64,000 bases of DNA, from positions 62,001-126,000 of the forward strand of contig NZ_VMNI01000014.1 of the NCBI RefSeq assembly GCF_007625205.1, read 5' to 3'. This document shows, one piece after another, positions 7,490-36,059 of the stretch; the first letter of the stretch is position 1, and each line of letters opens with the position of its first letter. This stretch comes from Denitromonas ohlonensis. GTDB lineage: Bacteria > Pseudomonadota > Gammaproteobacteria > Burkholderiales > Rhodocyclaceae. The notes under the pieces are model-generated. The model had not been told where the DNA came from, did no database searches, and saw only the letters and a list, made by a program, of their open reading frames with translations. The position numbers were made by a program, and so were the translations under genes.

Positions 7490-9403
7490 ATGTGCGGCAT
7501 TGCCGGTCTGTTTGATCTGGAAGGACGTCGGGATTTTTCGCGAGACCTCGTCACGCGCATGAGCGACGTGCAATACCATCGCGGTCCGGACGAAGGTGGT
7601 TATCACTTTGAGCCGGGCGTTGCGCTGGCCCATCGCCGTCTGTCGATCATCGACTTGGCGACCGGCCAGCAACCGCTGTTTAACGAAGATCACACCGTCG
7701 CTGTGGTCTTCAACGGCGAGATCTACAACTATCAGTCTCTTGTCCCCGAACTTCAGGCGCTGGGCCATGTGTTTCGCACGCACAGCGACACCGAAGTCAT
7801 CGTTCATGCGTGGGAGGCGTGGGGCGAGGCCTGCGTCGAGCGCTTTCGCGGCATGTTTGCCTTCGCGCTGTGGGATCGCAACCGGCAAACCCTTTTTCTG
7901 GCCCGCGATCGACTCGGCGTCAAACCCCTGTTCTACGGGGTGATGAAAGATGGCAGCTTTGCCTTTGGCTCCGAGCTCAAAGTGCTGATGGCGCACCCCG
8001 GGCTGGATCGACGCATCGATCCGCTGGCGGTCGAAGAGTATTTTGCGTTGGGTTATGCGGCTGAGCCACGCACGATTTTCAAGGGCGCAGCCAAGCTCGA
8101 TCCCGGTCACACATTAACCCTCCGGCGCGGCCAGCCGATCCCGGCGAGTCGGCCCTACTGGGATGTCCGTTTTACGCTCGACAACCCGATCAGCCTGGAT
8201 GATGCGGTGGCCGAGCTGAATGAGCGGCTGCATGAATCCATCCGCTTGCGCATGATTTCCGAAGTGCCGCTGGGCGCTTTTCTCTCCGGCGGGGTGGATT
8301 CGAGCGCCGTGGTGGCGACCATGGCAGATCTATCGTCCGGGCCGGTCAATACCTGCTCGATTGGCTTTGATGACCCGGCGTTCAACGAATCCGAGTTTGC
8401 CAAGATGGTGGCCGATCGCTACCACACCAATCACCACACCGAGACCGTCATGTCCGACGATTTCGACCTGATCGACAAGCTCTCCGCGCTGTACGACGAG
8501 CCCTATGCCGACAGCTCTGCCATCCCGACCTATCGGGTGTGCGAACTCGCGCGCAAGCATGTCACTGTCGCCTTGTCGGGCGATGGCGGTGACGAGAGCT
8601 TTGGCGGCTATCGCCGCTACCGTCTGCACATGATGGAGCAGCGCATGCGCGACGCGATGCCGCTGGGACTGCGTCGGCCGCTGTTCGGCGCGCTCGGTTA
8701 CGCCTATCCCAAGGCCGACTGGGCGCCGCGCATGTTCCGCGCCAAGACCACCTTTCAGGCCCTCGCGCGGGATTCGGTCGAGGCCTATTTCCATTCGGTA
8801 TCCATTTTGCGCAACGATCTGCGCAGTCAGGTGTTTTCCGATAGTTTCAAGCGCGAGTTGGGCGGTTACAACGCGCTGGAAGTGTTCCGTCGCCATGCCG
8901 GCAACGCCCAGACCGACGACTCGCTGGCGCAGATTCAGTATCTCGATCTCAAGACCTATCTGGTGGGCGATATCAACACCAAGGTCGATCGCGCCAGCAT
9001 GGCTCACTCGCTTGAGGTGCGCGAACCTTTGATGGATCACCCGCTGGTCGAGTGGCTTGCCGGTCTGCCCAACGATCTGAAAATCCGCGGACAAGAGGGC
9101 AAATTCCTGTTCAAGAAATCCCTCGAACCGGTGCTGCCGAATGATGTGCTCTATCGTCCGAAAATGGGCTTTGCCGTGCCGCTGGCACGCTGGTTCCGTG
9201 GTCCGCTCAAAGACCGGGTTCGCGAACGATTGATGGGCGACGTGATGGCGGATTCCGGTGTGTTCGACATGGCGACGCTGAAACGTATGCTGGATGACCA
9301 CCAGTCCGGGCGCCGGGATTACAGTGCGCCGTTGTGGACCTTGATGATGTTTGAGTCTTTCTTGCGCGGGGGCGGTGCTTCGATTGATAGGAGCGAACTC
9401 TGA
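7490..9403 (+). CDS. XrtA-associated amidotransferase 1 (asparagine synthase-like)
   Basis: A class II glutamine amidotransferase/asparagine synthetase of 637 residues. Cys2 of MCGIAGLFDLEG is the glutaminase nucleophile. The C-terminal half has the SGGVDSSAVVA PP-loop (~residue 264) and LSGDGGDESFGGY. Proteins of this type in EPS loci probably amidate a uronic acid or other carboxylate of the polymer rather than make free asparagine; that role is inferred from context. It starts 20 bp after the previous stop, and its TGA overlaps the next ATG. A paralogue lacking the glutaminase Cys is at 27525-29333. Confidence 0.92.
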   Translation: MCGIAGLFDLEGRRDFSRDLVTRMSDVQYHRGPDEGGYHFEPGVALAHRRLSIIDLATGQQPLFNEDHTVAVVFNGEIYNYQSLVPELQALGHVFRTHSDTEVIVHAWEAWGEACVERFRGMFAFALWDRNRQTLFLARDRLGVKPLFYGVMKDGSFAFGSELKVLMAHPGLDRRIDPLAVEEYFALGYAAEPRTIFKGAAKLDPGHTLTLRRGQPIPASRPYWDVRFTLDNPISLDDAVAELNERLHESIRLRMISEVPLGAFLSGGVDSSAVVATMADLSSGPVNTCSIGFDDPAFNESEFAKMVADRYHTNHHTETVMSDDFDLIDKLSALYDEPYADSSAIPTYRVCELARKHVTVALSGDGGDESFGGYRRYRLHMMEQRMRDAMPLGLRRPLFGALGYAYPKADWAPRMFRAKTTFQALARDSVEAYFHSVSILRNDLRSQVFSDSFKRELGGYNALEVFRRHAGNAQTDDSLAQIQYLDLKTYLVGDINTKVDRASMAHSLEVREPLMDHPLVEWLAGLPNDLKIRGQEGKFLFKKSLEPVLPNDVLYRPKMGFAVPLARWFRGPLKDRVRERLMGDVMADSGVFDMATLKRMLDDHQSGRRDYSAPLWTLMMFESFLRGGGASIDRSEL

Positions 9404-10589: not shown

Positions 10590-11795
10590 ATGAAAACGCT
10601 TCACATCCTAGATCACTCCATTCCCTTGCACAGCGGTTACACCTTTCGCACAGCCAACTTGCTGCGCGAGCAACGTGCGCTTGGCTGGGAAACTCATCAC
10701 CTGACCTCGCCGAAGCAGGGGGCTTGCAGCGCAGCGTCCGAAGAAGTGGACGGCCTGCTGTTTCATCGCACGCCCGTGCCCGCCATGCAGTGGCCCGTGG
10801 TGGGTGAAATGGCGTTGATGAAAGCCACCGAGCAGCGACTTGACGCTTTGGTGGCGCAGATTCGGCCAGATGTTCTGCACGCGCATTCGCCGGTGCTCAA
10901 TGCATTGCCTGCCTTGCGCGTGGGCCGCCGTCATGGCATTCCGGTGGTCTATGAGGTGCGCGCCTTCTGGGAAGACGCGGCGGTGGATCACGGCTCGACC
11001 CACGAGGGTAGTGTGCGCTATCGGCTGACGCGGGCGCTCGAGACCTATGCGCTGCGCAATGTCGACCATGTGTTCACTATCTGCGAAGGCTTGCGCAAGG
11101 ACATCGTCGGGCGGGGGATTCCGGCAGGCAAAGTGACCGTGATTCCCAATGCGGTCGATGTCACCCAGTTTCAACCCTGTGGCGTACCCGATGCCGCTCT
11201 GAAGGCGGAGCTTGGGCTCGACGGCTGTGATGTCGTCGGGTTTATCGGTTCCTTCTATGCCTATGAAGGCCTCGATCTGTTGCTGGATGCGTTTCCCCGG
11301 ATGCTTGTCCAGCGCCCGAATCTGCGCTTGTTGCTGGTCGGTGGTGGCTCCCAGGAGGACCGTTTGCGCGCTCAGGCGGCGGCTTTGGGTGTTGCCGACA
11401 AGGTGATCATGCCGGGCCGGGTGCCGCACAGCGAGGTCAAGCGCTACTACGATCTTATCGATGTGCTGGCCTATCCGCGCCATGCCATGCGCCTGACTGA
11501 GCTGGTGACGCCGCTCAAGCCGCTGGAGGCGATGGCGCAGGGGCGGATCTTTGTCGCGTCGGATGTCGGCGGTCATCGCGAGCTGATTCGCGACGGTGAA
11601 ACCGGCGTGTTGTTCCCGGCGGGCGACGCGGGTGCGCTGTCCGATGCGATCTGCGCGCTATTCGATCGCCGTGATCAATGGAGCGCGATGAGCGTGGCCG
11701 GTCGGCAGTTTGTGGAAGAGGTTCGCAACTGGAAGAACAGCGTGGCGAATTACATCCCGGTCTATGGTCGTCTGGCCGGCGCTGACGTTGCATGA
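10590..11795 (+). CDS. PEP-CTERM/exosortase A-associated glycosyltransferase (Daro_2409 type)
   Basis: A GT4 glycosyltransferase of 401 residues. It opens MKTLHILDHSIPLHSGYTFR, which is diagnostic of the XrtA-linked Daro_2409-type family. It contains YEVRAFWEDAAVDHG in the N-terminal domain and PLKPLEAMAQGRI in the donor domain. It begins after a 225-bp AT-rich gap, so a promoter may lie there. Its TGA overlaps the next ATG by 4 bp. It probably extends the lipid-linked glycan on the cytoplasmic side. Confidence 0.9.
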   Translation: MKTLHILDHSIPLHSGYTFRTANLLREQRALGWETHHLTSPKQGACSAASEEVDGLLFHRTPVPAMQWPVVGEMALMKATEQRLDALVAQIRPDVLHAHSPVLNALPALRVGRRHGIPVVYEVRAFWEDAAVDHGSTHEGSVRYRLTRALETYALRNVDHVFTICEGLRKDIVGRGIPAGKVTVIPNAVDVTQFQPCGVPDAALKAELGLDGCDVVGFIGSFYAYEGLDLLLDAFPRMLVQRPNLRLLLVGGGSQEDRLRAQAAALGVADKVIMPGRVPHSEVKRYYDLIDVLAYPRHAMRLTELVTPLKPLEAMAQGRIFVASDVGGHRELIRDGETGVLFPAGDAGALSDAICALFDRRDQWSAMSVAGRQFVEEVRNWKNSVANYIPVYGRLAGADVA

Positions 11796-12913
11796 GCTTC
11801 AAGTCTTTGCGTCTCGTTTTGGTTGGACCCTTGCCGCCGCCTGCCGGTGGCATGGCCAATCAGACCCGTCAGCTGGCCGAATTGTTGCGCAGCGAAGGTG
11901 CGCGGGTCACGGTGGTGCAGACCAATGCGGCCTATCGCCCCCAATGGGCTGGTCGACTGCCAGGCGTTCGCGCGGCGTTTCGTCTGGTGCCGTATCTCGT
12001 TGATCTGTGGCGTGCCTGCGGCCAGGGGCGCTTGATGCATCTGATGGCAAATTCCGGCTGGTCGTGGCACTTGTTTGCGGTGCCCGCGATTGTCGTGGCC
12101 CGCTTGCGCGGGGTGCCTGTCGTTGTGAATTATCGCGGTGGTGAAGCCGGAAGCTTTCTGAGCGGATCGGCCGGTGTTGTGCGCCTGGCCATGCGCCATG
12201 TGGCGGCGCTGGCCCTGCCGTCGGGTTATCTGCAGGCGGTATTCCAAGGCTACGGCATGGCGGGCGAGATCGTGCCGAACATCATCGATCTTCAGCGTTT
12301 TCGCCCGTCTGGCGCGCCGGTCGCTGGCGCGGCGGCTCACATTGTGGTCGCGAGAAATCTTGAGACGATTTACGGCATCGACGTGGCACTGCAGGCCTTT
12401 GCGCAGATTCGCCAGTCAGTGCCTTTGGCGACGCTGTCGGTGGCTGGAACCGGGCCGCAGTTGGCCAGTTTGCAGGCACAGTCCGAGGCGCTGGGGATTG
12501 CCTCCGCCGTGCGATTTACCGGCCGACTGGATCGGGATGAGATGGCCGATCTTTATCGCTCGGCGGATGTCATGATCAATGCCAGCCGGGTCGACAACAT
12601 GCCCAATTCGGTACTCGAGGCGCTGGCCAGTGGCGTGGCCGTGGTGTCGACCGACGTGGGTGGCGTGCCGCATATCGTCGAGCACGAAAAGACCGCACTG
12701 CTGGTGCCGCCCGATGCGCCGGAAGCGATGGCGCAAGCGGTCGTCCGCCTGCTGGAGGACGCGGCCTTGCGAAAGCGACTGGTCGAGGCTGGCCTTGCTG
12801 ATGTGGTGCGCTATCAGTGGGCATCGGTCAGTGCGCAGTGGCTGGCGGTGTATCGACGGGCCTTGGGTGGTTTGCCGGAGGTCGATTCTTCGGTGGAGGG
12901 CGCGCGGTCATGA
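11792..12913 (+). CDS. Glycosyltransferase family 4 protein
   Basis: 373 residues with two Rossmann-like domains. The N-terminal LVGPLPPPAGGMANQTRQL carries the acceptor-side glycine loop, and NASRVDNMPNSVLEALASG is the donor-binding EX7E-type region. A GT-B retaining transferase of the EPS pathway is the safest call; the sugar is unknown. It overlaps its upstream and downstream neighbours by 4 bp (ATGA), which places it firmly in the same operon. Confidence 0.87.
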   Translation: MSFKSLRLVLVGPLPPPAGGMANQTRQLAELLRSEGARVTVVQTNAAYRPQWAGRLPGVRAAFRLVPYLVDLWRACGQGRLMHLMANSGWSWHLFAVPAIVVARLRGVPVVVNYRGGEAGSFLSGSAGVVRLAMRHVAALALPSGYLQAVFQGYGMAGEIVPNIIDLQRFRPSGAPVAGAAAHIVVARNLETIYGIDVALQAFAQIRQSVPLATLSVAGTGPQLASLQAQSEALGIASAVRFTGRLDRDEMADLYRSADVMINASRVDNMPNSVLEALASGVAVVSTDVGGVPHIVEHEKTALLVPPDAPEAMAQAVVRLLEDAALRKRLVEAGLADVVRYQWASVSAQWLAVYRRALGGLPEVDSSVEGARS

Positions 12914-14259
12914 GTGTCTACACGCGATTTGTGTCTCAGGCGGTGTTTCCCTTGCAGGAGCGGCTCAAGAAACACGACACCGTGCGCGTGCGCCGCGCCA
13001 TGGAGGCGTCCCAATGGTGGCCAGCGGCGCAACTCGAGGCTTTTCAACGCGATCGTCTCCGGGCGTTTCTGTCGGATGTTGGCGCGCATGTTCCGTACTA
13101 TCGGCAGGTCTTCTCGGATGCGGGATTTGACCCGGCCAAGATCAGCCGGGTGGCCGACCTGCAGCGATTGCCCTTCCTGACCAAGCCGCTCATTCGCGCC
13201 AACACCGAGGCCTTGCGCGCCGACGATGCGCGTGCTCTGGCGCGTTTTAATACCGGTGGCTCCAGCGGCGAACCATTGATATTTTTCATCGGCGATGAGC
13301 GAGTGACTCACGATGTGGCGGCCAAATGGCGCGCTACGCGATGGTGGGATGTCGATATCGGCGATCGCGAGATTGTTGTTTGGGGTTCGCCGATTGAACT
13401 GGGGGCGCAGGACCGGGTGCGTCAGTTCCGCGATGCACTGATGCGTACCGAGTTGATGCCGGCGTTTGAAATGTCGGAGACGAAGCTCGACGGTTTTGTG
13501 GCTCGCATTCGCGCGCGACGCCCCGCCATGTTGTTTGGCTATCCGTCAGCGATCAGCCATATTGCCCGGCATGCCGAAAAGCGGGGCATCCGGCTGGACG
13601 ATCTGGGTGTTCGGGTGGTGTTTGTGACCTCGGAGCGCTTGTACGATGACCAGCGTGAAAGCATCGAACGATTGTTCGGCTGTCCGGTGGCCAACGGCTA
13701 CGGCGGTCGCGACGCTGGCTTTATTGCGCATCAGTGCCCGTCGGGCAGCATGCACATCACGGCCGAAGATATTGTCGTCGAGATCGTCGACGCGTCGGGC
13801 CAGGTGCTGCCGTCAGGGCAGTCCGGTGAAATCGTTGTGACTCATCTGGCGACGCGTGATTTTCCGTTCATCCGCTATCGCACCGGGGATATTGGCGTAC
13901 TTGATGACACGCCCTGTGCCTGCGGTCGCGGTTTGCCGGTATTGAAAGAAATCCAGGGGCGGAGCACGGATTTTGTCATCGCGCTCGACGGCACCGTGAT
14001 GCATGGCCTGTCACTGATATATGTATTGCGCGATATTCCTGCCGTGCGAGCGTTCAAGATCATTCAGGAAACGCTGACGCTGACGCGGGTGCAGGTGGAG
14101 CCGGGTGAAGGCTTTTCGGACGGGGATGTCGCATTGATTCAATCTGGCCTGCAGGCGCGTCTTGGTGCCTCGGTGGAGATTGTGGTGGAACAGGTGGCGC
14201 AAGTCGCGCCGGAGCGCTCTGGCAAGTTCCGCTATGTCATCAGCAAGATTGCAGGGTAG
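12910..14259 (+). CDS. CapK/PaaK-like adenylate-forming enzyme (phenylacetate-CoA ligase family)
   Basis: 449 residues of the PaaK/CapK branch of adenylating enzymes. The phosphate-binding loop is FNTGGSSGEPLIF, followed by NGYGGRDAGFIAHQC and YRTGDIGVLDD near the C-terminal hinge. In capsule and EPS loci such proteins activate an acid for attachment to the polysaccharide, but the substrate is unknown. ATG 12910 was chosen because it overlaps the previous stop; an in-frame extension upstream would lie inside the previous gene. It is a second, different acid-activating enzyme besides the acyl-CoA ligase at 40677-42260. Confidence 0.85.
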   Translation: MSVYTRFVSQAVFPLQERLKKHDTVRVRRAMEASQWWPAAQLEAFQRDRLRAFLSDVGAHVPYYRQVFSDAGFDPAKISRVADLQRLPFLTKPLIRANTEALRADDARALARFNTGGSSGEPLIFFIGDERVTHDVAAKWRATRWWDVDIGDREIVVWGSPIELGAQDRVRQFRDALMRTELMPAFEMSETKLDGFVARIRARRPAMLFGYPSAISHIARHAEKRGIRLDDLGVRVVFVTSERLYDDQRESIERLFGCPVANGYGGRDAGFIAHQCPSGSMHITAEDIVVEIVDASGQVLPSGQSGEIVVTHLATRDFPFIRYRTGDIGVLDDTPCACGRGLPVLKEIQGRSTDFVIALDGTVMHGLSLIYVLRDIPAVRAFKIIQETLTLTRVQVEPGEGFSDGDVALIQSGLQARLGASVEIVVEQVAQVAPERSGKFRYVISKIAG

Positions 14260-14287
14260 ATAGGGTGATGAATACAGGAGTTGCAAC

Positions 14288-15646
14288 GTGCGGGATCTGA
14301 TCGTTACCGCGTTGTTTGTTTTTGGGGCGCTTGTGGCGCTTAAGCGGCCGTATTACGGTGCGTTGCTATGGGTCTGGATCGGCTTGATGAACCCCCACCG
14401 TCTGGGTTGGGGTTTTGCTTATGACCTGCCTTTTGCCATGGCCTCAGTGGTCATCATCGCATTGGGGATGTTGTTCTCGATGCGCGCGATCCGCTGGCAA
14501 ACCGGCGGACCCGCCGTTGTACTGATTTTGATGATTTTGTGGATGACACTGACGTCGTTTACCGCGATTTTGCCCGAACCCAGCCAGACCAAGCTCATTG
14601 ATGTGCTCAAGGTGCTGGGAATGACCTTGGTCGTTGGTGCGCTCGTGGCGAGTCGCGAGCAAATTGTCGGACTGATCTGGGTGGTCGTGGGGTCTATTGC
14701 ATTTTTTGGTGTCAAGGGCGGCATCTTTACCCTGACAACGGGCGGTGAGTTCCGCGTGTGGGGGCCCCCATCAAGTCTGGTGCAGGGGAACAATGAACTC
14801 GCACTGGCATTGATTATCTCTATTCCACTGCTTTATTTTCTGGCGAAACAGGCGACGCTGGCGCGTGAGTTTGTACTGGTTAGCCGAATTCCCGAAAAAT
14901 GGTTGACCCGCGGTCTGATGGTGTCAATTTTATTATGTGCGGTCGCGGCGATTGGAAGTCACTCACGCGGCGCGTTGCTGGCGATCATCGCGATGGCGTC
15001 GATGATGTGGTGGCGCAGCCGGTCGAAGGTGGCGATGGGATTCTTGTTTCTGGCCTTGACCCCGGCGATTCTGATGTTGATGCCAGAAGAGTGGTTTTCC
15101 CGTATGGAAACCATCGAAACCTATGAAGAGGATTTGTCGGCGTTGGGTCGGATCAACGCCTGGCATATGGCCATCAATATCGCGAACGATCGCATTTTCG
15201 GCGCGGGTTTTGCTACGGCTTCGCCGGTGGTTTTCAACGCTTACGCGCCGAATCCAGACTGGGTTCTGGTGGCACACAGTATTTATTTTCAGATCCTTGG
15301 CGACCACGGCTACATCGGTTTGGGGCTATACCTGCTTTTCTGGATCCTGACCTACCGCGTGGCCGGCCGTTTGGCAGCGATGGAAGGGCGTGGTGCCCGC
15401 TTCGAGTGGGTTGCCATGCTCGGCAACATGACCAAGGTGAGCCTGGTCGGATTTGCGGTCGGGGGCGCCTTCCTGAGTCTCGCCTACTGGGACATGCCGT
15501 TCTACCTGATGATTATCCTGCTTGCGACGGAGCGCTATGTGAAAGAGGTGCTGGTCAAGGCGCCTGAAGACGTGGTGCCTTCTGCTGAGGTGGGAAATGG
15601 TGAGACGCCATCTCATCAACGCGCCTCGTCAGTAGTGAGCGGTTGA
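14288..15646 (+). CDS. Putative O-glycosylation ligase, exosortase A system-associated (Wzy/WaaL type)
   Basis: A polytopic membrane protein of 452 residues with roughly ten to twelve hydrophobic segments. It opens RDLIVTALFVFGALVALKRP and PYYGALLWVWIGLMNPHRL, typical of the exosortase-associated O-antigen ligase-like family. A large loop containing SHSRGALLAIIAM and an RINAWHMAINI segment matches the Wzy_C region. It probably polymerises or ligates the repeat units at the periplasmic face. The start is GTG at 14288, with AGGAG about 7 bp upstream. Confidence 0.87.
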   Translation: MRDLIVTALFVFGALVALKRPYYGALLWVWIGLMNPHRLGWGFAYDLPFAMASVVIIALGMLFSMRAIRWQTGGPAVVLILMILWMTLTSFTAILPEPSQTKLIDVLKVLGMTLVVGALVASREQIVGLIWVVVGSIAFFGVKGGIFTLTTGGEFRVWGPPSSLVQGNNELALALIISIPLLYFLAKQATLAREFVLVSRIPEKWLTRGLMVSILLCAVAAIGSHSRGALLAIIAMASMMWWRSRSKVAMGFLFLALTPAILMLMPEEWFSRMETIETYEEDLSALGRINAWHMAINIANDRIFGAGFATASPVVFNAYAPNPDWVLVAHSIYFQILGDHGYIGLGLYLLFWILTYRVAGRLAAMEGRGARFEWVAMLGNMTKVSLVGFAVGGAFLSLAYWDMPFYLMIILLATERYVKEVLVKAPEDVVPSAEVGNGETPSHQRASSVVSG

Positions 15647-15654
15647 GATCCGCC

Positions 15655-16602
15655 ATGTTGATGCGACCGGCATTTCATCTGGCCAGCACCCGGGGCGGCA
15701 ATGCCCGCTTGAGCATTTTTGTCTTTCATCGGGTATTGCCGACGCCTGACCCCTTATTTCCGGCCGAAGTGGATGTTGCAGCGTTTGATCGGATGCTGGG
15801 CTGGATTTGCCGCTGGTTTCGGGTTGTCCCGCTCGCCGAGGGCATTGACCTAATGCGGCGGGGTGACCTGCCGGCTCGGGCGGCCGCCATTACCTTTGAT
15901 GATGGCTACGCGGATAACCTCACCCATGCGCTGCCGATCCTTCAGCGACATGGCGCGTCGGCGACGTTGTTTGTGGCGACCGGGTTCCTGGATGGTGGCC
16001 GCATGTGGAACGATACGGTGATTGAATCGGTACGTCGTACGCCACTCGCTCAACTAGATCTGTCCGCGATCGGTCTCGGCGTGATCGCGACCGGGACGAT
16101 TGCCGAAAAGCGCCAAGCGATTGACTACCTGATTCCGCGCACCAAGCACCTCCCGGCCGATTCGCGTCAAGCGCAGGTGGCGGCGATTGCCAATGCCTCG
16201 CAAGCGATGTTGCCAGATGATTTGATGATGCGCTCGGATCAGCTCCAGGCATGGCATCGGGCCGGCATGGGGGTGGGGGCGCATACCGTGACGCATCCCA
16301 TTCTTGCGACCACCGAGCTGGATTCGGCGCGACAAGAGATGGCTGACAGCAAGACCCAGCTTGAAGCCTTGCTCGGCGAGCGCATTGGCTTGTTTGCCTA
16401 TCCGAACGGAAAACCCGAGCAAGACTATCGCTCAGAGCATGCCAGGCTGGCGGCCGAGCTGGGGTTTGATGCCGCCGTGGCAACGGTTTGGGGCGCCGCC
16501 ACGCGCGATAGCGACGTGTTTCAACTCCCGCGTTTCACGCCGTGGGACCGAACGAAATATCGTTTCGGTCTAAGGCTTCTACAGAATCTGTTGTCGAGCT
16601 GA
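15655..16602 (+). CDS. Polysaccharide deacetylase family protein
   Basis: A NodB-homology carbohydrate esterase of about 315 residues. Catalytic motifs are AITFDDGYADN (metal-binding Asp pair) and VGAHTVTHPIL (metal His residues), with FAYPNGKPEQDY further on. It differs from the XrtA deacetylase at 1642-2475 and resembles the deacetylases that end many EPS operons. Start choice is uncertain: TTG 15643 overlaps the previous stop (TTGA), while ATG 15655 and ATG 15661 follow in frame. The gene ends 4 bp before a convergent permease gene. Confidence 0.88.
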   Translation: MLMRPAFHLASTRGGNARLSIFVFHRVLPTPDPLFPAEVDVAAFDRMLGWICRWFRVVPLAEGIDLMRRGDLPARAAAITFDDGYADNLTHALPILQRHGASATLFVATGFLDGGRMWNDTVIESVRRTPLAQLDLSAIGLGVIATGTIAEKRQAIDYLIPRTKHLPADSRQAQVAAIANASQAMLPDDLMMRSDQLQAWHRAGMGVGAHTVTHPILATTELDSARQEMADSKTQLEALLGERIGLFAYPNGKPEQDYRSEHARLAAELGFDAAVATVWGAATRDSDVFQLPRFTPWDRTKYRFGLRLLQNLLSS

Positions 16603-16606
16603 GCCT

Positions 16607-18340
16607 TCAGGGGAAGAACGGAAACACCCGCGGCACCAGCAGTAAAACCACGGTTCCATAGACCAGCGCGACCGGTGTGCCGGTGCGCACAAAATCCATC
16701 ACCCGGTAGCGCCCTGGCGAATAGACCATCAGGTGGGTTTGATAGCCGAAGGGGATCAGGAAGCCGGCGCTGGCGCCATAGGCCACCAGCATCACAAACG
16801 GGGTGGGGTCGGCTCCGAAGGCGTGGGCGGTCGACAGCGCAATAGGGAAGGCCAGCGCGGCGGCAGCGTTGTTGGTGACCACCTCGGTGAGGATCACCGT
16901 CATCAGATAGATGCCGATGAACGCGCCCCACACGCCCAGATCGCCAAAGACATGGGCGACAAAGTCCGAGATGATGGCCGCGCCACCCGAGGATTCGAGC
17001 ACGCGCGCGATGGCCAGGGCGGCGCCGATGACCAGAATCAGTTCGAACGGGAATCGCCGGCGAATCTCGGCCATCGAGAGCAGTCCGCTGGCCAGAAAGG
17101 CGCCAAGCAAGAGCAGCAGCCCGGCAAACAGAGGCAGCACGTTGGTCGCGGCGGCGATGATCACACTGGCGAATCCGCCGACCACCCAACGGGTTTGCGG
17201 TTGCGTGAGCTTGGGGTGCAGCGGGGCGCCGCCCACGCGATGAAAGTTGCGCGCCAGATTGCGGTGCTGGGCAAAATCGGCGCCAGCGGCCAATAACAGG
17301 GCGTCTCCGACCCGGAGCGGTATCCGGCCCAGCTGCCCGGTCAGGCGTTTATCGCCGCGGCGGATGCCGACCACGCCCGCGTCGAACATGGTGCGGAAGT
17401 CGACCTCGCGCAAGGTCCGGTTGGCCAACTCCGAATCACTGGAAATAACGACTTCGACGAGGTTGGAGCGCAAGAGATCGTCTGCGCGCGTGCCAAACAC
17501 TTGCAAGCCGGGGAAGCGGTCGATGACCTGCATTTTCTCGACTTCGCCGGTGAAGATCAGCACATCGTCGGCATGCAGGATTTCTTCGGGTGATACCGGA
17601 GAGATGAGTCGCCCGCCCCGAACGATTTCAACCAGAAACAGCCCGTCGAGGTTGCGCAGGCGGTTGGCCTCAATGCTGCGACCGATGAGGGGCGAGCCGG
17701 CTGTCAGTCGGGCCTCCAGAAAATAGGCTTGGCGCGGGCCACCGTCGTCGCCGGTGCGCACGGGTAGCCAGCGGGCGACGAGCGTCAGACAGACAATGCA
17801 CGCCAAGGCCACGGGCACGCCGACGGTGGTCATTTGAAACATCGAAATCGATGGCAGGCCAGCGCGCTCGGCGAAGGAATTGACGACCAGGTTGGTGGAG
17901 GTGCCCACCAGCGTGGTGATGCCGCCCAGCACGGCGGCGTAGGACAGCGGCAGCAGCAAGCGCGATGCGGGGTGATGGCGCTGGCGGGTGATGGTGCCCA
18001 GCAAGGTGCTGACCACGGCGGTGTTGTTGAGAAAGGCAGAGCAGGCCGCGGTGATCAGACACATGCGGAAGGTGGCGAGGCGTTCGCCGCCCTTGAGGAG
18101 CGTCTCCGAGAAGCGCTCGATGAGCGGCGCGCGTTCCAGTACCAGCGAGATCAGCAGCAGCAACAGCAAGACGGCCAGCCCGGGGTTGGCGTAGCTCTCA
18201 AGAAGCTCGCGCTCGCTGATCAAGCCCAGCAGATGGTAGCCACCGGCCCAGCCGCAGAACAGCAGCGCGGGTGACAGGCGGCCATGCACCAGCAGCGCGA
18301 CCAGCAGGGCAAGTGAGAGCAGAACCCAGGTGGCGGTCAT
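16607..18340 (-). CDS. SLC13-family (DASS-type) permease with RCK_C domains
   Basis: An inner-membrane anion/Na+ symporter-like protein of 577 residues. The N-terminal ~170 residues and the C-terminal ~190 residues are hydrophobic, each with several membrane segments; NNTAVVSTLLG and VVTNNAAAALAFPIALS are the duplicated family motifs. Between them lie two soluble TrkA_C/RCK_C-like domains (e.g. GSPLIGRSIEANRLRNLDG). Proteins with this architecture often carry sulfate or dicarboxylates. The adjacent cysQ, cysD and cysNC favour sulfate, but this is inference. It lies 18 bp downstream of cysQ in the same direction. Confidence 0.87.
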   Translation of the reverse strand: MTATWVLLSLALLVALLVHGRLSPALLFCGWAGGYHLLGLISERELLESYANPGLAVLLLLLLISLVLERAPLIERFSETLLKGGERLATFRMCLITAACSAFLNNTAVVSTLLGTITRQRHHPASRLLLPLSYAAVLGGITTLVGTSTNLVVNSFAERAGLPSISMFQMTTVGVPVALACIVCLTLVARWLPVRTGDDGGPRQAYFLEARLTAGSPLIGRSIEANRLRNLDGLFLVEIVRGGRLISPVSPEEILHADDVLIFTGEVEKMQVIDRFPGLQVFGTRADDLLRSNLVEVVISSDSELANRTLREVDFRTMFDAGVVGIRRGDKRLTGQLGRIPLRVGDALLLAAGADFAQHRNLARNFHRVGGAPLHPKLTQPQTRWVVGGFASVIIAAATNVLPLFAGLLLLLGAFLASGLLSMAEIRRRFPFELILVIGAALAIARVLESSGGAAIISDFVAHVFGDLGVWGAFIGIYLMTVILTEVVTNNAAAALAFPIALSTAHAFGADPTPFVMLVAYGASAGFLIPFGYQTHLMVYSPGRYRVMDFVRTGTPVALVYGTVVLLLVPRVFPFFP

Positions 18341-18358: not shown

Positions 18359-19126
<768 letters not shown>

Positions 19127-19193
19127 TCGGGGACTCCGTGGGCAGGGCAGATGGGGCAGGTTAATGCAGACACGCCATGTTGGTGACGTGGCA

Positions 19194-19237
19194 GTTAATT
19201 ATTTAACACTGAGTCAGGCCAAATAAATGTTTAATAT
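19194..19237. promoter_or_regulatory. AT-rich divergent promoter region with palindrome
   Basis: The 140-bp gap between divergent cysQ and the HTH-cysD reading frame is strikingly AT-rich. It holds a perfect 5-4-5 inverted repeat, GTTAATTATTTAAC (19194-19207), and a possible -10 TAATAT at 19232-19237 for the + strand. Related GTTAAT and TTTAAT words lie at about 19160 and 19230. This could be an operator of the HTH protein encoded just downstream or of a CysB-type regulator. No convincing -35 was seen. Confidence 0.35.
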
Positions 19238-19266
19238 ATCACCATGCCACTTCGATTGAACGATTC

Positions 19267-20091
19267 ATGCCGCCGCGTTTGACCGGCGATGCGCTGAACC
19301 AGGCCCGACGGCGGGCGGTTGAGCTGCGCCGACAGGGGCGGACCCTGGCCGAAGTGTCGGCGGCGACCGGCTTGTCGGTGCCGACCGTTGTTGCCGCGGC
19401 GAAAGCGTTTGCGCAGGCCGGTTGGGCGGGCGTGGATGTGCGCCCGCAGGGGCGGCCGGTCGGGAGCGGTCGCGCGATCGATAAGGCGGTCGAAGCCGAG
19501 ATTCGCGATGCGTTTCTGGTGTGTTCGCCCGAGCGCGCCGGCGAAGCGGGTGGGTTGTGGCAGCACCAGGCGGTGGCCCGCTGGTTGGTGCGTCGCTTTG
19601 ACATCGACCTGGGTGAGCGCACGGTGGCGCGCTATGTGGCGAGCTGGGGCATTGATCCGCCCGACTGGCAGACTGTTCTTCGCGCGTCGACCAAACACGA
19701 TGCGCCCGAGCCCCCAGCGCTCGATTCGCGCGCGCGCTTTTGGTGTGGCGAGCAGCGCCTGGACGCGACGCGAACCGTGCTGTTTGCGCGCGGGCCGCGC
19801 GGTCGCCTGTATTGGCGCATCGTCGCCGTGCCGCTGCAGGCGCTGGCCGTGGTCGATTTTCTGGAACGGATGTGCACTTTGGCTGGCCGGCCATTGCAGT
19901 TGCACTGGGTGGGGGCCGACATCACGCAGGTCGCCTCAGTGGCCGCTTGGCTAGCGGCCAATGCGGCGCGGCTGGTGCTGGTGCGCTATCGCGCGCCCGA
20001 GGCGTCCCCGGCAGTATCGTATGATTCGAACAACGCGGCGTTGGCGCAGTTGGCCAGCGACGATCAACACGGTTTTCGCAAGAGGACAGCA
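19267..20091 (+). CDS. IS630-transposase-like HTH protein/segment, in frame with cysD
   Basis: 275 codons read from ATG 19267 straight into cysD with no stop. Residues ~5-75 form a homeodomain-like HTH ([20 protein letters not shown]) followed by [14 protein letters not shown], as in IS630-type transposases and their derivatives. Residues ~80-135 look like a second winged-helix unit ([19 protein letters not shown]). Residues ~155-260 follow the outline of an IS630 DDE domain and end in YRAPEASP where transposases have Y-SPELNP. The expected catalytic Asp positions read CGEQ and HWVGAD, so it is probably catalytically dead. It may be a domesticated regulator of the cys genes, or an N-terminal extension of CysD. 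Confidence 0.6.
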
Positions 20092-20991
20092 ATGACATTG
20101 ACCCATTTGCAACGGCTCGAGGCCGAAAGCATCCACATCATGCGCGAGGTGGTGGCCGAGGCTGACAACCCGGTCATGCTCTATTCGATCGGCAAGGACA
20201 GCGCGGTGATGCTGCATCTGGCCATGAAGGCCTTCTACCCGGCCAAGCCGCCGTTTCCGCTGCTGCATGTGGATACGCGCTGGAAGTTTCGCGAGATGTA
20301 CAGCTTCCGCGACAAGATGGTGAAGGAGCTTGGCCTGGACCTGCGGGTGCATATCAACCCCGAAGGCGTCGAGAAGGACATCAATCCCTTCACGCACGGT
20401 TCGGCGATCCACACCGATATCATGAAGACCGAAGGGCTCAAGCAGGCGCTCGATATGTACGGCTTCGACGCGGCCTTTGGCGGCGCCCGGCGCGACGAGG
20501 AAAAATCGCGCGCCAAGGAGCGTATCTTCTCCTTCCGCAGTGCGCAGCATCGCTGGGACCCGAAGGTGCAGCGCCCCGAGTTGTGGAAGCTCTACAACGC
20601 GCGCAAGCACAAGGGCGAGTCGATGCGGGTGTTTCCGCTGTCGAACTGGACCGAGTTGGACATCTGGCAATACATCTACCTCGAAGACATTCCGATCGTG
20701 CCGCTGTACTACTCGGCTGCGCGTCCGGTGGTCGAGCGCGATGGCGCGCTGATCATGGTCGACGACGAACGCATGCCGCTCAAGGCCGGCGAGGTGCCGA
20801 TGATGCGCAAGGTGCGTTTCCGCACCCTGGGCTGCTATCCGCTGACCGGGGCGGTCGAGTCCGATGCCGACACGCTGCCGGCGATCATCCAGGAAATGTT
20901 GCTGACGAAAACCTCGGAGCGCCAGGGCCGGGTGATCGACCACGATTCTGCCGCGTCCATGGAAAAGAAAAAGCAGGAGGGGTATTTCTGA
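20092..20991 (+). CDS. cysD: Sulfate adenylyltransferase subunit 2 (ATP sulfurylase small subunit)
   Basis: 299 residues that with CysN form APS from ATP and sulfate. The PP-loop motif is [10 protein letters not shown] at residues 32-41, then [14 protein letters not shown], and [20 protein letters not shown]. It ends with the family tail [12 protein letters not shown] 20092 gives the normal length and has AGAGGA about 6 bp upstream. The same frame is open for a further 275 codons upstream, so a longer fused product cannot be excluded. A repeat-filled gap separates it from cysNC. Confidence 0.95.
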
Positions 20992-21144: not shown

Positions 21145-21154
21145 AGGCTTGCTA

Positions 21155-23065
21155 ATGGCCCACGTATCCGATCTCATCGCCTCCGATATTGGCGAATACC
21201 TGCGCAGCCACGAGCACAAGAGCCTGCTGCGTTTCATTACCTGCGGCAGTGTGGATGATGGCAAGAGCACCCTGATCGGGCGTCTGCTGTTCGAATCCAA
21301 GATGCTGTTCGAAGACCAGATGGCCGCGGTCGAAGCCGACTCGAAGAAATACGGCACCCAGGGCGAGGATATCGACTTCGCCTTGCTGGTCGATGGCCTC
21401 GCCGCCGAGCGGGAGCAGGGCATCACCATTGATGTGGCCTATCGCTTCTTCTCGACCGACAAGCGCAAGTTCATCGTTGCCGACACCCCGGGGCATGAGC
21501 AATACACCCGCAACATGGTCACCGGCGCCTCAACCGCCGACGTCGCCATTTTGATGGTCGACGCGCGCAAGGGCATCCTTACCCAGACGCGCCGCCACAG
21601 TTACCTGGTGTCGCTGATCGGCATCCGCCACATCGTGGTCGCCATCAACAAGATGGACCTGGTCGACTACTCGGAAAAGACCTACCGCAAGATCGTTGAA
21701 GACTATCGCGATTTTGCCACCCGCATCGGTATCGAGGATGTCACCTTCATCCCGCTGTCGGCTTTCAAGGGCGATAACATCATCGCCCCCAGTGACAAGC
21801 TGCCCTGGTATCACGGCACCACGCTGATGGGCTTTCTCGAAACTGTCGAGATCGACGAAGAGCGCATGCAGAAGGCGGCGTTCCGCCTGCCGGTGCAATG
21901 GGTGAACCGCCCCAATCTCGACTTCCGCGGCTTTGCCGGCACCGTGTCCAGCGGCGTCATCCAGCCGGGCGACCGCATCCGTGTTCAGCCCTCGGGTAAG
22001 GAAAGTACCGTCGCGCGTATCGTCACGCATGATGGCGATCTGCCGCAGGCCGTGGCCGGCCAGTCGATCACACTCACGCTGGCCGATGAGATTGATGTCT
22101 CCCGTGGCGACGTCATCTCCATCGCCGAACACCCGGCCAGCTCGGCCGATCAGTTCGAAACCACCATCGTCTGGATGCACGACGAACCGATGCTGCCCGG
22201 CCGCGCCTATCTGCTCAAGATCGGCACCAAAATGGTCACGGCGACGGTCACCGAAATCAAGTATCAGGTGAACGTCAACACCATGGAACACGTGGCCGCC
22301 AAGAAGCTCGATCTCAACGGCATCGCGGTGTGCAACCTCAGCCTCGACCGCCAGATCGCCTTCGACGCCTACACCGATAACCGCGATACCGGCGCCTTCA
22401 TCCTGGTCGACCGGCTCAGCAACAACACCGTCGGCGCCGGCATGATCCACTTCGCTCTGCGCCGCTCGCACAACATCCACATGCAGCATGTGGATGTCGA
22501 CAAGGCGGCACGCGGCGGCATGAAAGGCCAGAAACCCTGCCTGTTGTGGTTCACTGGCCTGTCCGGTGCCGGCAAATCGGCCATCGCCAACATGGTCGAG
22601 AAAAAGCTCCACGCCATGGGCCGCCACACCTATCTGCTCGACGGCGACAACGTGCGTCACGGTCTGAACAAGGACCTCGGCTTCACCGATGCCGACCGTG
22701 TCGAGAACATCCGCCGTGTGGCCGAAGTCGCCAAGCTGATGGTCGACGCCGGCCTGATCGTCATCACCGCCTTCATCTCCCCCTTCCGCTCAGAGCGGCG
22801 CATGGCGCGCACCCTGGTGGAAGAGGGCGAGTTCCTCGAAGTGTTTGTCGACACCCCGCTCGAAGTCGCCGAAGAGCGCGATCCGAAGGGGCTTTACAAG
22901 AAAGCGCGACGGGGTGAGTTGAAGAACTTCACTGGTATCGATTCGCCGTATGAGGCGCCGGAAGAGGCGGAAGTTCGGTTGAAGACTGTGGGTAGTTCCA
23001 TCGAGGCGTCGGCCGATCAGGTGATCGCGGCGCTGCGCCAGCATCACATCCTGGGCGCCGACTAG
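21155..23065 (+). CDS. cysNC: Bifunctional sulfate adenylyltransferase subunit 1 / APS kinase
   Basis: 636 residues making PAPS from sulfate together with CysD. Residues 1-~430 are CysN, an EF-Tu-like GTPase with GSVDDGKST (31-39), [12 protein letters not shown] and NKMDLVDY. Residues ~445-636 are CysC, with Walker [14 protein letters not shown] (~468) and [16 protein letters not shown] 21155 is preferred because CAGGAGG lies 8 bp upstream; a TTG two codons earlier is also in frame. The PAPS product feeds assimilation and could feed the sulfotransferase at 35289-36059. Confidence 0.96.
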
Positions 23066-27524: not shown

Positions 27525-29333
27525 TCAAGCGTCGGGCGTGGTTGCCGGCCGGGAAAGCCACAACTCCATCATCATCAGAATCCACACCAGTTCACCGTAG
27601 TAACCCGGGTGCGCTGGCAGTAGCTCGTCGATGAGGCGATCGATCAAGGCCGGCTGGATGATGCCTCTCTTTTTGAGCTGACCAAGTGTGTCACCGGCGA
27701 GGTTGCGCAAACCGGCGTGCTGGCAGGCCCAGACGCCGAAGGGGAGGCCGAATCCGTGCTTCTGCTTCTTGATGATCGCTTCGGGCAGGAAGTCGCGCAG
27801 CGCCTCCTTGAAAAACCAGCGAAGCTTGAACCCTCGGAGTTTATAGTCGAGCGGCAGGGCGAGCGAGAAATCGAGCAGGGCGTCGTCAAGTAGAGGGAAT
27901 TCGACGCCGACGCCTGCCAGATCCGTGGTGCCGAGGATTTTGGGCAGGTCGTTGTCGGCCAGCGTGTACTTCCAGTCGAAGGCGAGCATGCGGTTGAGAT
28001 CGCTGCCGGCCTTGATGCGTGCCCAGACATCTCGACTCGCCTGATCAGGCGCACCTTGATCGATCTGGCTGAGGTAGTCGGGGGTGAGCAGATTGTCTGC
28101 GCCGACCCGGACGAGCAGCGTGTATTGGTGGATTCGATCGGGGAGTGGCACGCGGGCTTGCTCTACATAGCTTGCCGCTTTTTTTACGATAGGTATTCGC
28201 TTGCTGATGTCGAGGTTCAATACCGGTTCGAGCAGGCTTCGGCGCAGAGCGCCGGGGACGTCGTCGTACCAGCCAAAGATTTTCTGTTTGGCGTAGCGGG
28301 TGTTGCCGCCAAATAGTTCGTCGCCGCCGTCACCGGCGAGTAGTGTCTCGATGCCGTCCTGTTTGGCAAAGCGGGCGCAGAGCCAGGCGGGCACGGCGGA
28401 GGAGTTGCCGAAGGGCTGGTCGTAATGCTGCGCGACCTTCGGGATACCTTCGAGCAAGTCGCCAGGCGTGACATAGTATTCGTGGTGGTGGGTGCCGAAA
28501 TGTTGTGAGGCGGTGCGGGCGAAGTCCATCTCGTCGTAGCCGCTGGCGTCGAACCCCATCGAATAGGTTTCTGCAGGTTTGCCGGTGACCTTGCCGAGCA
28601 TGCCAGCGACGGTGGAGCTATCGGTGCCTCCGGACAGGAAGGCCCCGACTTTGCCGTGTTCGGCAGCACGGGCGACGGCAGTTTCGACGATATGAAGGAA
28701 TTGCTGCTTGGTTTCGGCGAAATCCATCCGTGCCGGTTCATGGAAGGTCGGTCGCCACCATGCGTCTATCTGCAATTTGCCTTCGAGCCAGAGAAGCCGG
28801 TGGCCGCCCTCCAGGCGCTGGATGTCTTTGAAAATGGTCTGCGGCGCTGGAATGACGTGATGGAACAGGTAGGAGAAAATCGCCTGCGGGTCGATTTCGG
28901 AGCTGTTGTCGGACAGCGCATCCGCCCGGTCGGCGAACAGGAGCCGGCTGCCGCGCCGGGTGAAGCACCATGGGTGCGTGCCGAAACGGTCGGTCGCCAG
29001 AAAAACCGATTGCGCATTGCGATCCACGATGGCAATGGCAAAGCGGCCCTGAACGTGGTTTGGTGCGTTCTGACCATATTTGGCGTACAAAATGCGCCAG
29101 GCGGCTGCCGCCGAGGCCGGAATGTCTTCACCGCCAAAATCGGCCGGCTTGAAAACCGGCTTGCCACGACTCAGACACAACACACCATCGCGCTCGTCGA
29201 GTATCAGTTTGTCGCTGAGCGCGGCCTCGGCGTGTGGCCATTGGAGCCGTTCTTTTGGCGCGCGCTGAGGTAGCGGCGACGCATTGCTTGCGGTTGAGAG
29301 CGAAGAAAGATCGAGCGAAGTGTGCTGAGTCAT
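27525..29333 (-). CDS. Asparagine synthase-like amidotransferase without glutaminase Cys
   Basis: 602 residues. The C-terminal two thirds are a normal asparagine-synthetase domain with SGGTDSSTVAG (234-244) and LAGDGGDELFGGN. The N-terminal ~190 residues keep the class II glutaminase fold (GRFAIAIVDRNAQSVFLATDR) but begin MTQHTSLDLSSLST, with no MCG start, so the catalytic N-terminal Cys is missing. It probably uses free ammonia or another amine, or catalyses a different adenylation/condensation. Start 29333 overlaps the flippase stop by 4 bp. It contrasts with the intact amidotransferase 1 at 7490-9403. Confidence 0.87.
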   Translation of the reverse strand: MTQHTSLDLSSLSTASNASPLPQRAPKERLQWPHAEAALSDKLILDERDGVLCLSRGKPVFKPADFGGEDIPASAAAAWRILYAKYGQNAPNHVQGRFAIAIVDRNAQSVFLATDRFGTHPWCFTRRGSRLLFADRADALSDNSSEIDPQAIFSYLFHHVIPAPQTIFKDIQRLEGGHRLLWLEGKLQIDAWWRPTFHEPARMDFAETKQQFLHIVETAVARAAEHGKVGAFLSGGTDSSTVAGMLGKVTGKPAETYSMGFDASGYDEMDFARTASQHFGTHHHEYYVTPGDLLEGIPKVAQHYDQPFGNSSAVPAWLCARFAKQDGIETLLAGDGGDELFGGNTRYAKQKIFGWYDDVPGALRRSLLEPVLNLDISKRIPIVKKAASYVEQARVPLPDRIHQYTLLVRVGADNLLTPDYLSQIDQGAPDQASRDVWARIKAGSDLNRMLAFDWKYTLADNDLPKILGTTDLAGVGVEFPLLDDALLDFSLALPLDYKLRGFKLRWFFKEALRDFLPEAIIKKQKHGFGLPFGVWACQHAGLRNLAGDTLGQLKKRGIIQPALIDRLIDELLPAHPGYYGELVWILMMMELWLSRPATTPDA

Positions 29334-30811
29334 TGCCTTGAATATCGTTTGGCCAGATCGGCCCATAGTATGCGGATTTTCTGAAGACAGTAGCGCTCTG
29401 CGCCGTCTGGCATTCGTGCGGAACGCCACAGCGCAAGCATCAAAACGGCATAGGTGGCCGCGCCGACGATGATCTTGAGTGCCAATACGGCCATGAGAGG
29501 TAGGGCGGGTTGCGGTAGCCAGTGCAGCGCGGCGGCCATTCCGCCTGCAGCAGCCAGGGGGCGCCATATCTGGCCGATCAGGGCGCTGAGCCGTAGGTCA
29601 GGGGTCCATCGTAAAACCAGGCCAAAAAACAGCATGGCGCCTGCCGATACCGCACCCAGACGTATGAGTGCGATTCCGCTCAGGTCAGCCCCCTGGGCAA
29701 ATGCCAGTGCCAGTGCGAGAAACATGGCCGGCTCCAGCCAGGCAATGGCAGCGAGTGCTTTTACACGCCCTTGCGCGAGCAACAGATAGATACTGCTGTG
29801 GGTAATGGCGCCGACGACGTTGACCAGCGCGAGGATCTGGATGAGGGGAATGGTCATTGTCCAGGCATCGCCCAGCAGCAGTGGCACAGCCTGGGGAGCC
29901 ACCATGGCCAAGCCGACACCGGCCGGCACCGCGACGAGCGTTTGTACGCCAAGGGCAAGCGAAAAGCTGCGAAGGAGATTGTCGCCCCGGTCACGTTGCT
30001 CGACGAAGGCCGGGAACAGCACGCGCCCGAGCGGTGAGAGCAGCTCAGTAGTGGGGATGGCGGCGATTTCATCGGCCAGCGTGTAGCTGCCCATACCCGC
30101 GGCACCTTGACCGCCGACCACGAATTTGTCCACGCGGGTCGCCACGTAGGTGCCGATATTTCGCACCAGCACCCACTGCGAGAAGGACCAGAGTTGTCGG
30201 ATCTTGCTGAGCCCCAGTCGTGGCCGGAAGGCGTGCATGTGGTAGCTCAACAGCACGCCCACCACGCGGCCCGTGAGCGCGCCAATGACCATCGCCCAAT
30301 AGGAGCGCAACCACCACGCAGCGGCGAGGGTCACGACAAAGCCGGCCAGGCGACGATAGAAGAAAAAGCGAAAGTCCTGGCCGAAGGCCATGTGTTTCTG
30401 GAAGTCGACAATGCCGATGTTTTCACTGCTGGCGATCAGCACCGACAAGGCCATCACGTAGAGGACCGGGCCGACGCGCGAGTCACCGAAGTACGTCACC
30501 GCCAGTGGTGTGAGCAGTACGATCAGGCTCGCCGAGATGCCGGCCTGGAGGATGCGCAGGGTCCAGGCCGTGTCATAGTCTTCGCGGCTGGGGTCTTTGG
30601 CGTGGATCAGAGCAACGTGGACGCCCAGATCGAGCAGGACATCGATCAGGCCGACCATGATTGAGGCCATCGCCACGATGCCGAAATCTTCGGGCACCAG
30701 CAGGCGGGCCAGCACGAGCGTGCTGACCAGGCCGATCAAGCGGTCTGACCAGCGCATGCCGATGACCAGCAGCGCGCTGACGGCCAGTCCGGTCCGTTGG
30801 GGGTGGGTCAT
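29330..30811 (-). CDS. Oligosaccharide flippase (Wzx/MOP superfamily), copy 1
   Basis: 493 residues with about twelve hydrophobic segments. ARLLVPEDFGIVAMASIM at residues ~36-53 is the typical first-repeat motif of PST/Wzx flippases. ENIGIVDFQKHMAFG and FSQWVLVRNIG occur in the central part. It should translocate undecaprenyl-linked repeat units to the periplasm. A clear paralogue at 38948-40441 shares PEDFG, ENIG-FQK and LRSYWA motifs. It is read with the PLP decarboxylase upstream (10 bp) and overlaps the amidotransferase downstream. Confidence 0.88.
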   Translation of the reverse strand: MTHPQRTGLAVSALLVIGMRWSDRLIGLVSTLVLARLLVPEDFGIVAMASIMVGLIDVLLDLGVHVALIHAKDPSREDYDTAWTLRILQAGISASLIVLLTPLAVTYFGDSRVGPVLYVMALSVLIASSENIGIVDFQKHMAFGQDFRFFFYRRLAGFVVTLAAAWWLRSYWAMVIGALTGRVVGVLLSYHMHAFRPRLGLSKIRQLWSFSQWVLVRNIGTYVATRVDKFVVGGQGAAGMGSYTLADEIAAIPTTELLSPLGRVLFPAFVEQRDRGDNLLRSFSLALGVQTLVAVPAGVGLAMVAPQAVPLLLGDAWTMTIPLIQILALVNVVGAITHSSIYLLLAQGRVKALAAIAWLEPAMFLALALAFAQGADLSGIALIRLGAVSAGAMLFFGLVLRWTPDLRLSALIGQIWRPLAAAGGMAAALHWLPQPALPLMAVLALKIIVGAATYAVLMLALWRSARMPDGAERYCLQKIRILWADLAKRYSRQ

Positions 30812-35288: not shown

Positions 35289-36059
35289 TCAGCGCCGGTG
35301 TGTCATCGACTGATCCGCATGCTGAACCAGCTTTTCCCGGCATCGGGCATAGGTTTCGCTGGCGCGATTCAGTAGTTCTGGGGGGAGCTCAATATCGGCG
35401 TAGTTGCTTTTCTTGACTTGAATCGCGCCCGATCTAAGCGCATCGGAGTTGTCTCCCGAATTGCCTTTGGCAGAACGTTCGAATAACTCGTACTCGGTAG
35501 TCAACGGTTGGGAAAGACCAAGCCATTGCGTGATTGCAGCGAGCGTGTCGTCGCTTGCACTGACCAGTGCTTCGGCATCGAGGTAGAAGTATTTACCTGG
35601 AATTGTCGTGGCGATGGCGGCCAGCGTCTCGAGCCGGTCGATGTAGTAGGTGGCGGCGCCTTGGATCGTGGCCTCCGGGAGGTCCGGACTGGTTTTTCGA
35701 TACAGCGTCACGATGCTTTTGATGGACTGCTCGGGCTCCCGGATCATCAACAGGGCGCGCGTGTCGTTGCGGGTGAGCATCGCCGGTGTAATGTGATGGC
35801 CGTCGTGAAGTACTTTGTCGAAAAGGATGCGGCTTGATGGCTTGGCCGAATGATCCGAAAAGTGCAACATTTTCTGCCGCCACAGGCTTTTCCAGCTGTA
35901 GTAGCTGATATGCATCTCGTAGTAGCCTTCGACATCTGGACTGCTGCCGAGAATGTGGCCGAACAGCGTTGTGTTGGCCCGCATATGGCTCAACAAAAAG
36001 ACGTTCTTCGCGGTGAACAGAAGACGCGGGTTGGCAAAGAAAGCGCTGAGCATCGACAT
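35289..36059 (-). CDS. Sulfotransferase family protein
   Basis: 256 residues. The 5'-phosphosulfate-binding motif is LSHMRANTTLFGHILGSSP (Arg27, Thr30, Thr31) and the 3'-phosphate motif is LMIREPEQSIKS (Arg107, Ser115), both as in PAPS-dependent carbohydrate sulfotransferases. No signal peptide is evident, so sulfation would occur on the cytoplasmic side before export. It lies between a carrier protein and a GT2 gene of the same strand, so the likely substrate is the EPS repeat unit. PAPS can come from the cysD-cysNC genes 14 kb away. Confidence 0.75.
   Translation of the reverse strand: MSMLSAFFANPRLLFTAKNVFLLSHMRANTTLFGHILGSSPDVEGYYEMHISYYSWKSLWRQKMLHFSDHSAKPSSRILFDKVLHDGHHITPAMLTRNDTRALLMIREPEQSIKSIVTLYRKTSPDLPEATIQGAATYYIDRLETLAAIATTIPGKYFYLDAEALVSASDDTLAAITQWLGLSQPLTTEYELFERSAKGNSGDNSDALRSGAIQVKKSNYADIELPPELLNRASETYARCREKLVQHADQSMTHRR

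Follow-up and report, generated by a model that had tools for sequence, protein, structure and literature searches.

What is a segment of transposase ancestry doing in one reading frame with an enzyme of sulfate activation? The question is raised by a gene in a stretch of 64,000 nucleotides of Denitromonas ohlonensis DNA (the whole of which is called the window here), where a single stop-free frame of 574 codons runs on the forward strand from position 19267 to 20991. It encodes 275 amino acids of transposase-derived sequence (the N-domain) followed, from an ATG at 20092, by 299 amino acids of CysD, the small subunit of sulfate adenylyltransferase (20092-20991; PF01507, PAPS_reduct, E 2.7e-59). 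The latter part is 72% identical to PDB 1zun_A across the aligned portion and has the PAPS-reductase/PP-loop domain with its GKDS motif, and a CysN-type partner is encoded alongside. The N-domain begins with its best conserved part, the predicted helix-turn-helix unit HTH1 (about residues 1-61, 19267-19449; model helices 7-22, 27-34 and 38-55), followed by a second such unit, HTH2 (about residues 73-126, 19483-19644; model helices 73-85, 100-111 and 117-126). Then come an RNase H-like remnant (about residues 156-241, 19732-19989), recognised from its alignment with IS630 transposases and from the modelled order strand-strand-strand-helix-strand-helix-strand, and a linker (about residues 246-275, 20002-20091), which is predicted to be disordered (pLDDT below 50 at 246-276) and differs in length among relatives. 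All of these parts lie on the forward strand, as does a Shine-Dalgarno-like AAGAGGA (20080-20086) in front of the internal ATG. An earlier note on this DNA had described a transposase-derived segment in one open frame with CysD, the loss of its catalytic Asp residues, and a CysD with its own ATG and Shine-Dalgarno sequence, making two products possible; the present analysis bears out this description.

Codons 1-275 come, on the joint evidence of sequence and models, from an IS630-family transposase of which two HTH units and an RNase H-like remnant are left. The window segment matches the NCBIfam IS630 transposase model with E 8e-12 and 45 bits, below the curated cut-off of 100, and it matches Pfam HTH families with scores that are likewise below the family cut-offs. 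NF033545 is matched at E<=0.001 by all 25 of 25 N-domains, and positions 2-250 of the N-domain profile align with whole intact IS630 transposases. In the alignment with these transposases the motif WGDE reads WCGE in the window, so that the first Asp is lost, and the second Asp is replaced as well. The fused N-domains stop before reaching the third catalytic acid, and the window sequence diverges ahead of the motif that carries it. Most aligned fusions lack the first and the second Asp, the first being retained in five loci. No intact DDE/DDD catalytic triad is therefore present in the window, and the N-domain is to be regarded as derived from the IS630 family rather than as an active member of it. 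A plasmid search with the N-domain gave 17 records, none of them spanning 80% of it; an IS630 transposase annotation stands on 9 of the 15 records listed.

The earlier note had named the absence of an HTH/RNase H fold in structure prediction as an argument against its proposal. The AlphaFold2 model of the N-domain alone (mean pLDDT 89.7) contains a pair of HTH units together with a sheet of RNase H type; that of the full-length fusion has a mean pLDDT of 73.2, with values below 50 in the linker and some low stretches in CysD too. The best Foldseek matches of the N-domain were TnsB and Mos1 (E 3e-5 to 1e-4), with TM-scores that are lowered by the greater size and different bend of the target chains; taken jointly with the sequence evidence, rather than alone, these matches support the RNase H/transposase reading. 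VIA-align placed the N-domain beside integrase cores (Z 7.5) and the paired domains of Pax5 and Pax6 (Z 7.5 and 7.3, rmsd above 9), middling values which, by the tool's own note, lie in the range of unrelated matches. A sequence search of the PDB with the N-domain profile gave no match at E<=10.

The fusion is conserved, and more broadly than the window alone reveals. After five duplicates had been dropped, 49 distinct N-domain loci remained, of which 47 reach CysD and two leave the contig. The frame from the N-domain into CysD is open in all 47, with 34 different spacer lengths, and the other five frames are each free of stops in just 0 to 7 of the 47; the loci are related, and such counts do not represent independent events. 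Frequent stops or frameshifts in the upstream part of relatives, which the earlier note had regarded as fatal to its idea, were not seen. As 23 of the 47 loci were picked partly for their open frame (being genome-search matches), selection bias is possible, and two results provide a check on it: a scan of genome contigs for the HTH1 pattern, in which CysD was not required, found 31 loci, 29 fused in frame, two cut by the contig and none unfused, and the N-domain was present in none of 22 unfused cysD loci, in any frame and including flanks of about 1.5 kb.

The fused gene occurs in eight of ten genomes of the genus sample, the remaining two (both 86% complete) having only other CysD matches. 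The family sample of 150 genomes includes at least 16 with the fusion, a count made without partial matches in two genomes, and one more (locus L040) with HTH1 plus CysD; two further fused loci belong to another family of the same order. In the class sample (369 genomes) an N-domain match at E<=1e-15 was found in 25, and four of these beyond the window proved to be fused, one of the four with HTH1 only. Four more distant fused loci lie beyond the set of 47. The hosts represent several beta- and gammaproteobacterial families and include Methyloversatilis, Sterolibacterium, Azohydromonas, Rhizobacter, Comamonas, Pusillimonas, Allopusillimonas, Achromobacter, Granulosicoccaceae and Chromatiales. 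In two distant genomes (L040 and L143) the fusions are shortened to HTH1 and a linker before CysD, HTH2 and the RNase H remnant being gone.

Purifying selection on codons 1-275, for which the earlier note had proposed to look, was found. The estimates (Nei-Gojobori, 18 pairs) include many synonymous distances near saturation, and therefore the ranking of the parts is safer than the dN/dS values themselves: 0.01-0.20 for HTH1 (17 of 18 pairs, the 18th not being computable), 0.04-0.52 for HTH2 (14 of 18 pairs, four not computable), 0.13-0.67 for the RNase H remnant (15 of 18 pairs computable), 0.29-0.86 for the linker and 0.01-0.13 for CysD (each computable in 17 of 18 pairs). Judged by these substitution patterns, purifying selection on HTH1 is strong, and stronger than on any other part of the N-domain.

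If HTH1 is a DNA-binding unit, a target may lie close at hand. The earlier note had pointed to a palindrome in the promoter as a possible target of the transposase-derived segment, and in this region a motif was found twice that is also present ahead of fused genes elsewhere. The palindromic consensus, ATTAAATATTTAAT, reaches 14.5 bits as against 5.6-7.5 in 20 refitted shuffles. In the window it is represented by candidate operator 1, GTTAATTATTTAAC (19194-19207, score 14.8), and candidate operator 2, AATAAATGTTTAAT (19222-19235, score 18.6, leave-one-clade-out P 0.005), which are spaced 28 bp apart and are the only sites scoring >=12 within the 64 kb. The best upstream score exceeds the 1% shuffle threshold in 39 of the 49 fused loci and the 5% threshold in 46. 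Neither threshold is exceeded by any of 21 upstream regions of unfused cysD (12 close relatives and nine paralogues of the same genus), and a scan across 12 whole unfused loci gave a best score of just 5.3. Among 26 named loci, 22 scores >=14 lie within 230 bp upstream and none across the remaining 271,505 bases. Since the motif model was trained on fused loci, the shuffle comparison and the site scan are partly circular, and two other tests are fairer. In the leave-one-clade-out test P<=0.05 was obtained in 45 of 49 loci and 14 of 17 clades, and the four loci that failed include L040 and L101 (the others being L023 and L025). Among four further loci, on which the model had not been trained, L146 passed clearly with P 0.006, L143 gave a marginal 0.048, and L144 and L145 failed. 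Pairs of sites 27 bp apart (six loci) or 28 bp apart (seven loci) occur in beta and gamma lineages alike.

The exact pattern TTAAN4TTAA stands within about 200 bp upstream of 25 of the 49 fused loci and of none of the 21 unfused cysD genes, the shuffles giving a mean of 0.3 in 49. A single exact copy in the window is in itself not rare (at least one in 10 of 100 shuffles), and the pattern is not enriched across the window's genome, where it occurs five times and its reversed form seven times. A regulon built on it was considered and set aside, the five genomic sites including no clear promoter site besides that of the fusion. One site of the same genome, TTAAATGCTTAA (L110, C19:63104-63115), is identical to the Azohydromonas site and adjoins an unrelated membrane-protein ORF on its upstream side; this copy is probably due to chance. 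A search for a sigma-70-type promoter pattern at 19120-19280 found none. A terminator-like hairpin (19174-19192) directly precedes candidate operator 1.

How might these features work together? We consider it reasonably probable that the gene encodes an autoregulating trigger enzyme derived from a domesticated transposase, which binds the palindromes of its own promoter and to which an internal start probably adds plain CysD. A truncated, catalytically dead IS630 transposase would have been kept for its DNA-binding HTH units, and a flexible linker would connect it to a functional CysD, forming a regulator and enzyme in a single chain. The fusion would bind the palindrome pair (ATTAAATATTTAAT, with a spacing of 27-28 bp in several lineages) and adjust, by what we infer to be repression rather than activation, the transcription of cysD-cysNC, and perhaps of the divergent cysQ, in response to the state of the complex that activates sulfate. 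DNA binding might be set by APS or ATP on CysD, or by CysN capturing CysD, and the internal start would allow one gene to supply both a regulator and an enzyme form.

The neighbouring genes bear on this proposal and on its strongest rival. Downstream lies a CysN-CysC fusion of GTPase and APS kinase, the partner subunit (21149-23065, + strand; Pfam GTP_EFTU and APS_kinase). Of the 26 named loci in which sequence continues past the fusion, 25 have it adjoining the fused gene, and in L101 it is 2.9 kb off. On the other side, a CysQ-like gene of the inositol monophosphatase family (18359-19126, - strand; PF00459) is divergently oriented and has its intergenic region in common with the candidate operators; the divergent arrangement with CysQ is seen in 17 of 31 named loci. 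Beyond it, a CitMHS/Na-sulfate symporter-type transporter with TrkA_C domains (16607-18340, - strand; Pfam) is found in nine of the 31. The nearly constant adjacency of CysNC would also suit a real fusion whose N-domain serves the assembly, stability or localisation of CysDN rather than DNA binding, another regulator acting on the palindromes, and the retention of the RNase H remnant in most loci, under weaker constraint, agrees with such a role. We nevertheless regard it as unlikely: HTH1 is the most constrained part of the N-domain and the sole part left in L040 and L143, and the motif tracks the fusion, being missing from the unfused upstream regions and whole unfused loci described above.

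Somewhat less probable still is that plain CysD is the sole functional product, with the upstream frame acting as a translated leader that couples or tunes CysD translation and the fusion a by-product. An ATG lies no more than 25 codons before the conserved CysD start in 43 of the 47 distinct loci (L101 and L103 have a GTG at that place), and in many cases purine-rich sequence precedes it, like the AAGAGGA in the window; on these sequence features plain CysD is probably also made from an internal start. Translational coupling, however, needs no shared frame, yet the frame is kept across the 34 spacer lengths, and the HTH residues are under selection at the protein level. Furthermore, the two Achromobacter loci offer only GTG (L106) and TTG (L107) as nearby starts.

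The N-domain might instead act mainly elsewhere, e.g. against IS630 elements, the ends of which may have remained recognisable to it. Related IS630 transposases are indeed present in the same order and class, but we think this role very improbable, as the motif sits at the fused gene's own promoter, the 12 IS630 loci inspected lacked TTAAN4TTAA, and their terminal repeats, where found, look unlike the palindrome. An origin of the operator from IS630 terminal repeats is not supported by these loci. Finally, although high G+C favours stop-free frames, as is evident from an open extension of 389 amino acids before one unfused CysD (L037, left out of the fused set for want of any N-domain match), a transposase insertion in decay, free of stops ahead of cysD by mere accident, is scarcely credible in the face of homologous fused N-domains in many families and a matching upstream motif, and a chance open frame is contradicted by the HTH-only scan, the dN/dS values and frame retention at so many spacer lengths.

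Returning to the autoregulating trigger enzyme, one can ask what it would sense. The corepressor of BirA is an adenylate, and by analogy APS or ATP could be the switch of DNA binding. In this tentative version, which we hold to be possible rather than probable, the transposase part would be a sensor-operator arm: CysD would sense its own nucleotide state (ATP or APS, cf. BirA and biotinyl-AMP), the HTH would switch the PAPS-making operon on or off, and the internal start would give a non-regulatory CysD. Around the module in the window lie genes for an exosortase (EpsH), two asparagine synthases, glycosyltransferases, an O-antigen-ligase type polymerase and polysaccharide export (4765-6300, 7490-9403, 10590-16602 and 27525-30811), and a sulfotransferase-family gene (35289-36059, - strand; PF13469, E 1.5e-9) in this exopolysaccharide region with PAPS-making genes suggests a sulfated polysaccharide. 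In Vibrio vulnificus, PAPS made via CysD and CysC is reported to drive c-di-GMP-dependent polysaccharide expression (PMC6113621), which is a parallel and no more.

The fused gene is the sole CysD match in five of 12 genomes checked and, if these assemblies are complete, must do the enzyme's job there. Close relatives of the window's CysD exist without the N-domain, which is therefore dispensable for the enzyme. The window's own genome has a second, unfused CysD that is 50% identical (L016, contig C39). A CysD tree was built from 45 fused and 17 unfused rows, without seven unfused paralogue loci; on it the fused/unfused label needs nine changes, at least four of them forced. Unfused rows among the fused ones would suit, on this sequence tree, an old gain with repeated loss; the root of the tree is not fixed and horizontal transfer is possible.

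The fusion resembles several known systems. Like IS630-Tc1-mariner transposases, with which it shares full-length N-domain alignment and NF033545 matches, its best fold matches including Mos1 and TnsB, it carries their HTH and RNase H-like outline, but it ends before the third acid, has lost Asp residues and is joined to an enzyme. Its CysD agrees over the whole domain with that of the Pseudomonas syringae CysDN ATP sulfurylase (1zun), including the GKDS motif and a CysNC neighbour, and differs in bearing an extension of about 275 amino acids of DNA-binding type. PutA and BirA are described as trigger enzymes that also repress their own operon (PMC6978683). The likeness, predicted here from sequence and models, is that one chain would combine DNA-binding domain and metabolic enzyme, and that a motif lies at the operon which encodes it; in our case the DNA-binding domain would stem from a transposase, the enzyme is a sulfate adenylyltransferase and the control is inferred. 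Transposase-host protein fusions are also known from eukaryotes; CSB-PGBD3 is reported to join a transposase-derived part to a host protein that is also made alone, whereas the window's case is bacterial and involves another transposase family, an enzyme as partner and a probable internal translation start rather than alternative splicing. Searches of the open-licence PMC literature found no description of such a fusion. Annotation pipelines likely start CysD at the internal ATG, which would mask the fusion.

If the proposed reading is true, a bacterial transposase has come to serve a metabolic enzyme as its DNA-binding part and has been kept in this role across beta- and gammaproteobacteria, where it would provide a local regulator for sulfate activation. 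The predicted operator makes the idea of autoregulation directly testable. Should the CysD part moreover act as the sensor, sulfate activation in the window would be tied to an exopolysaccharide cluster with a sulfotransferase.
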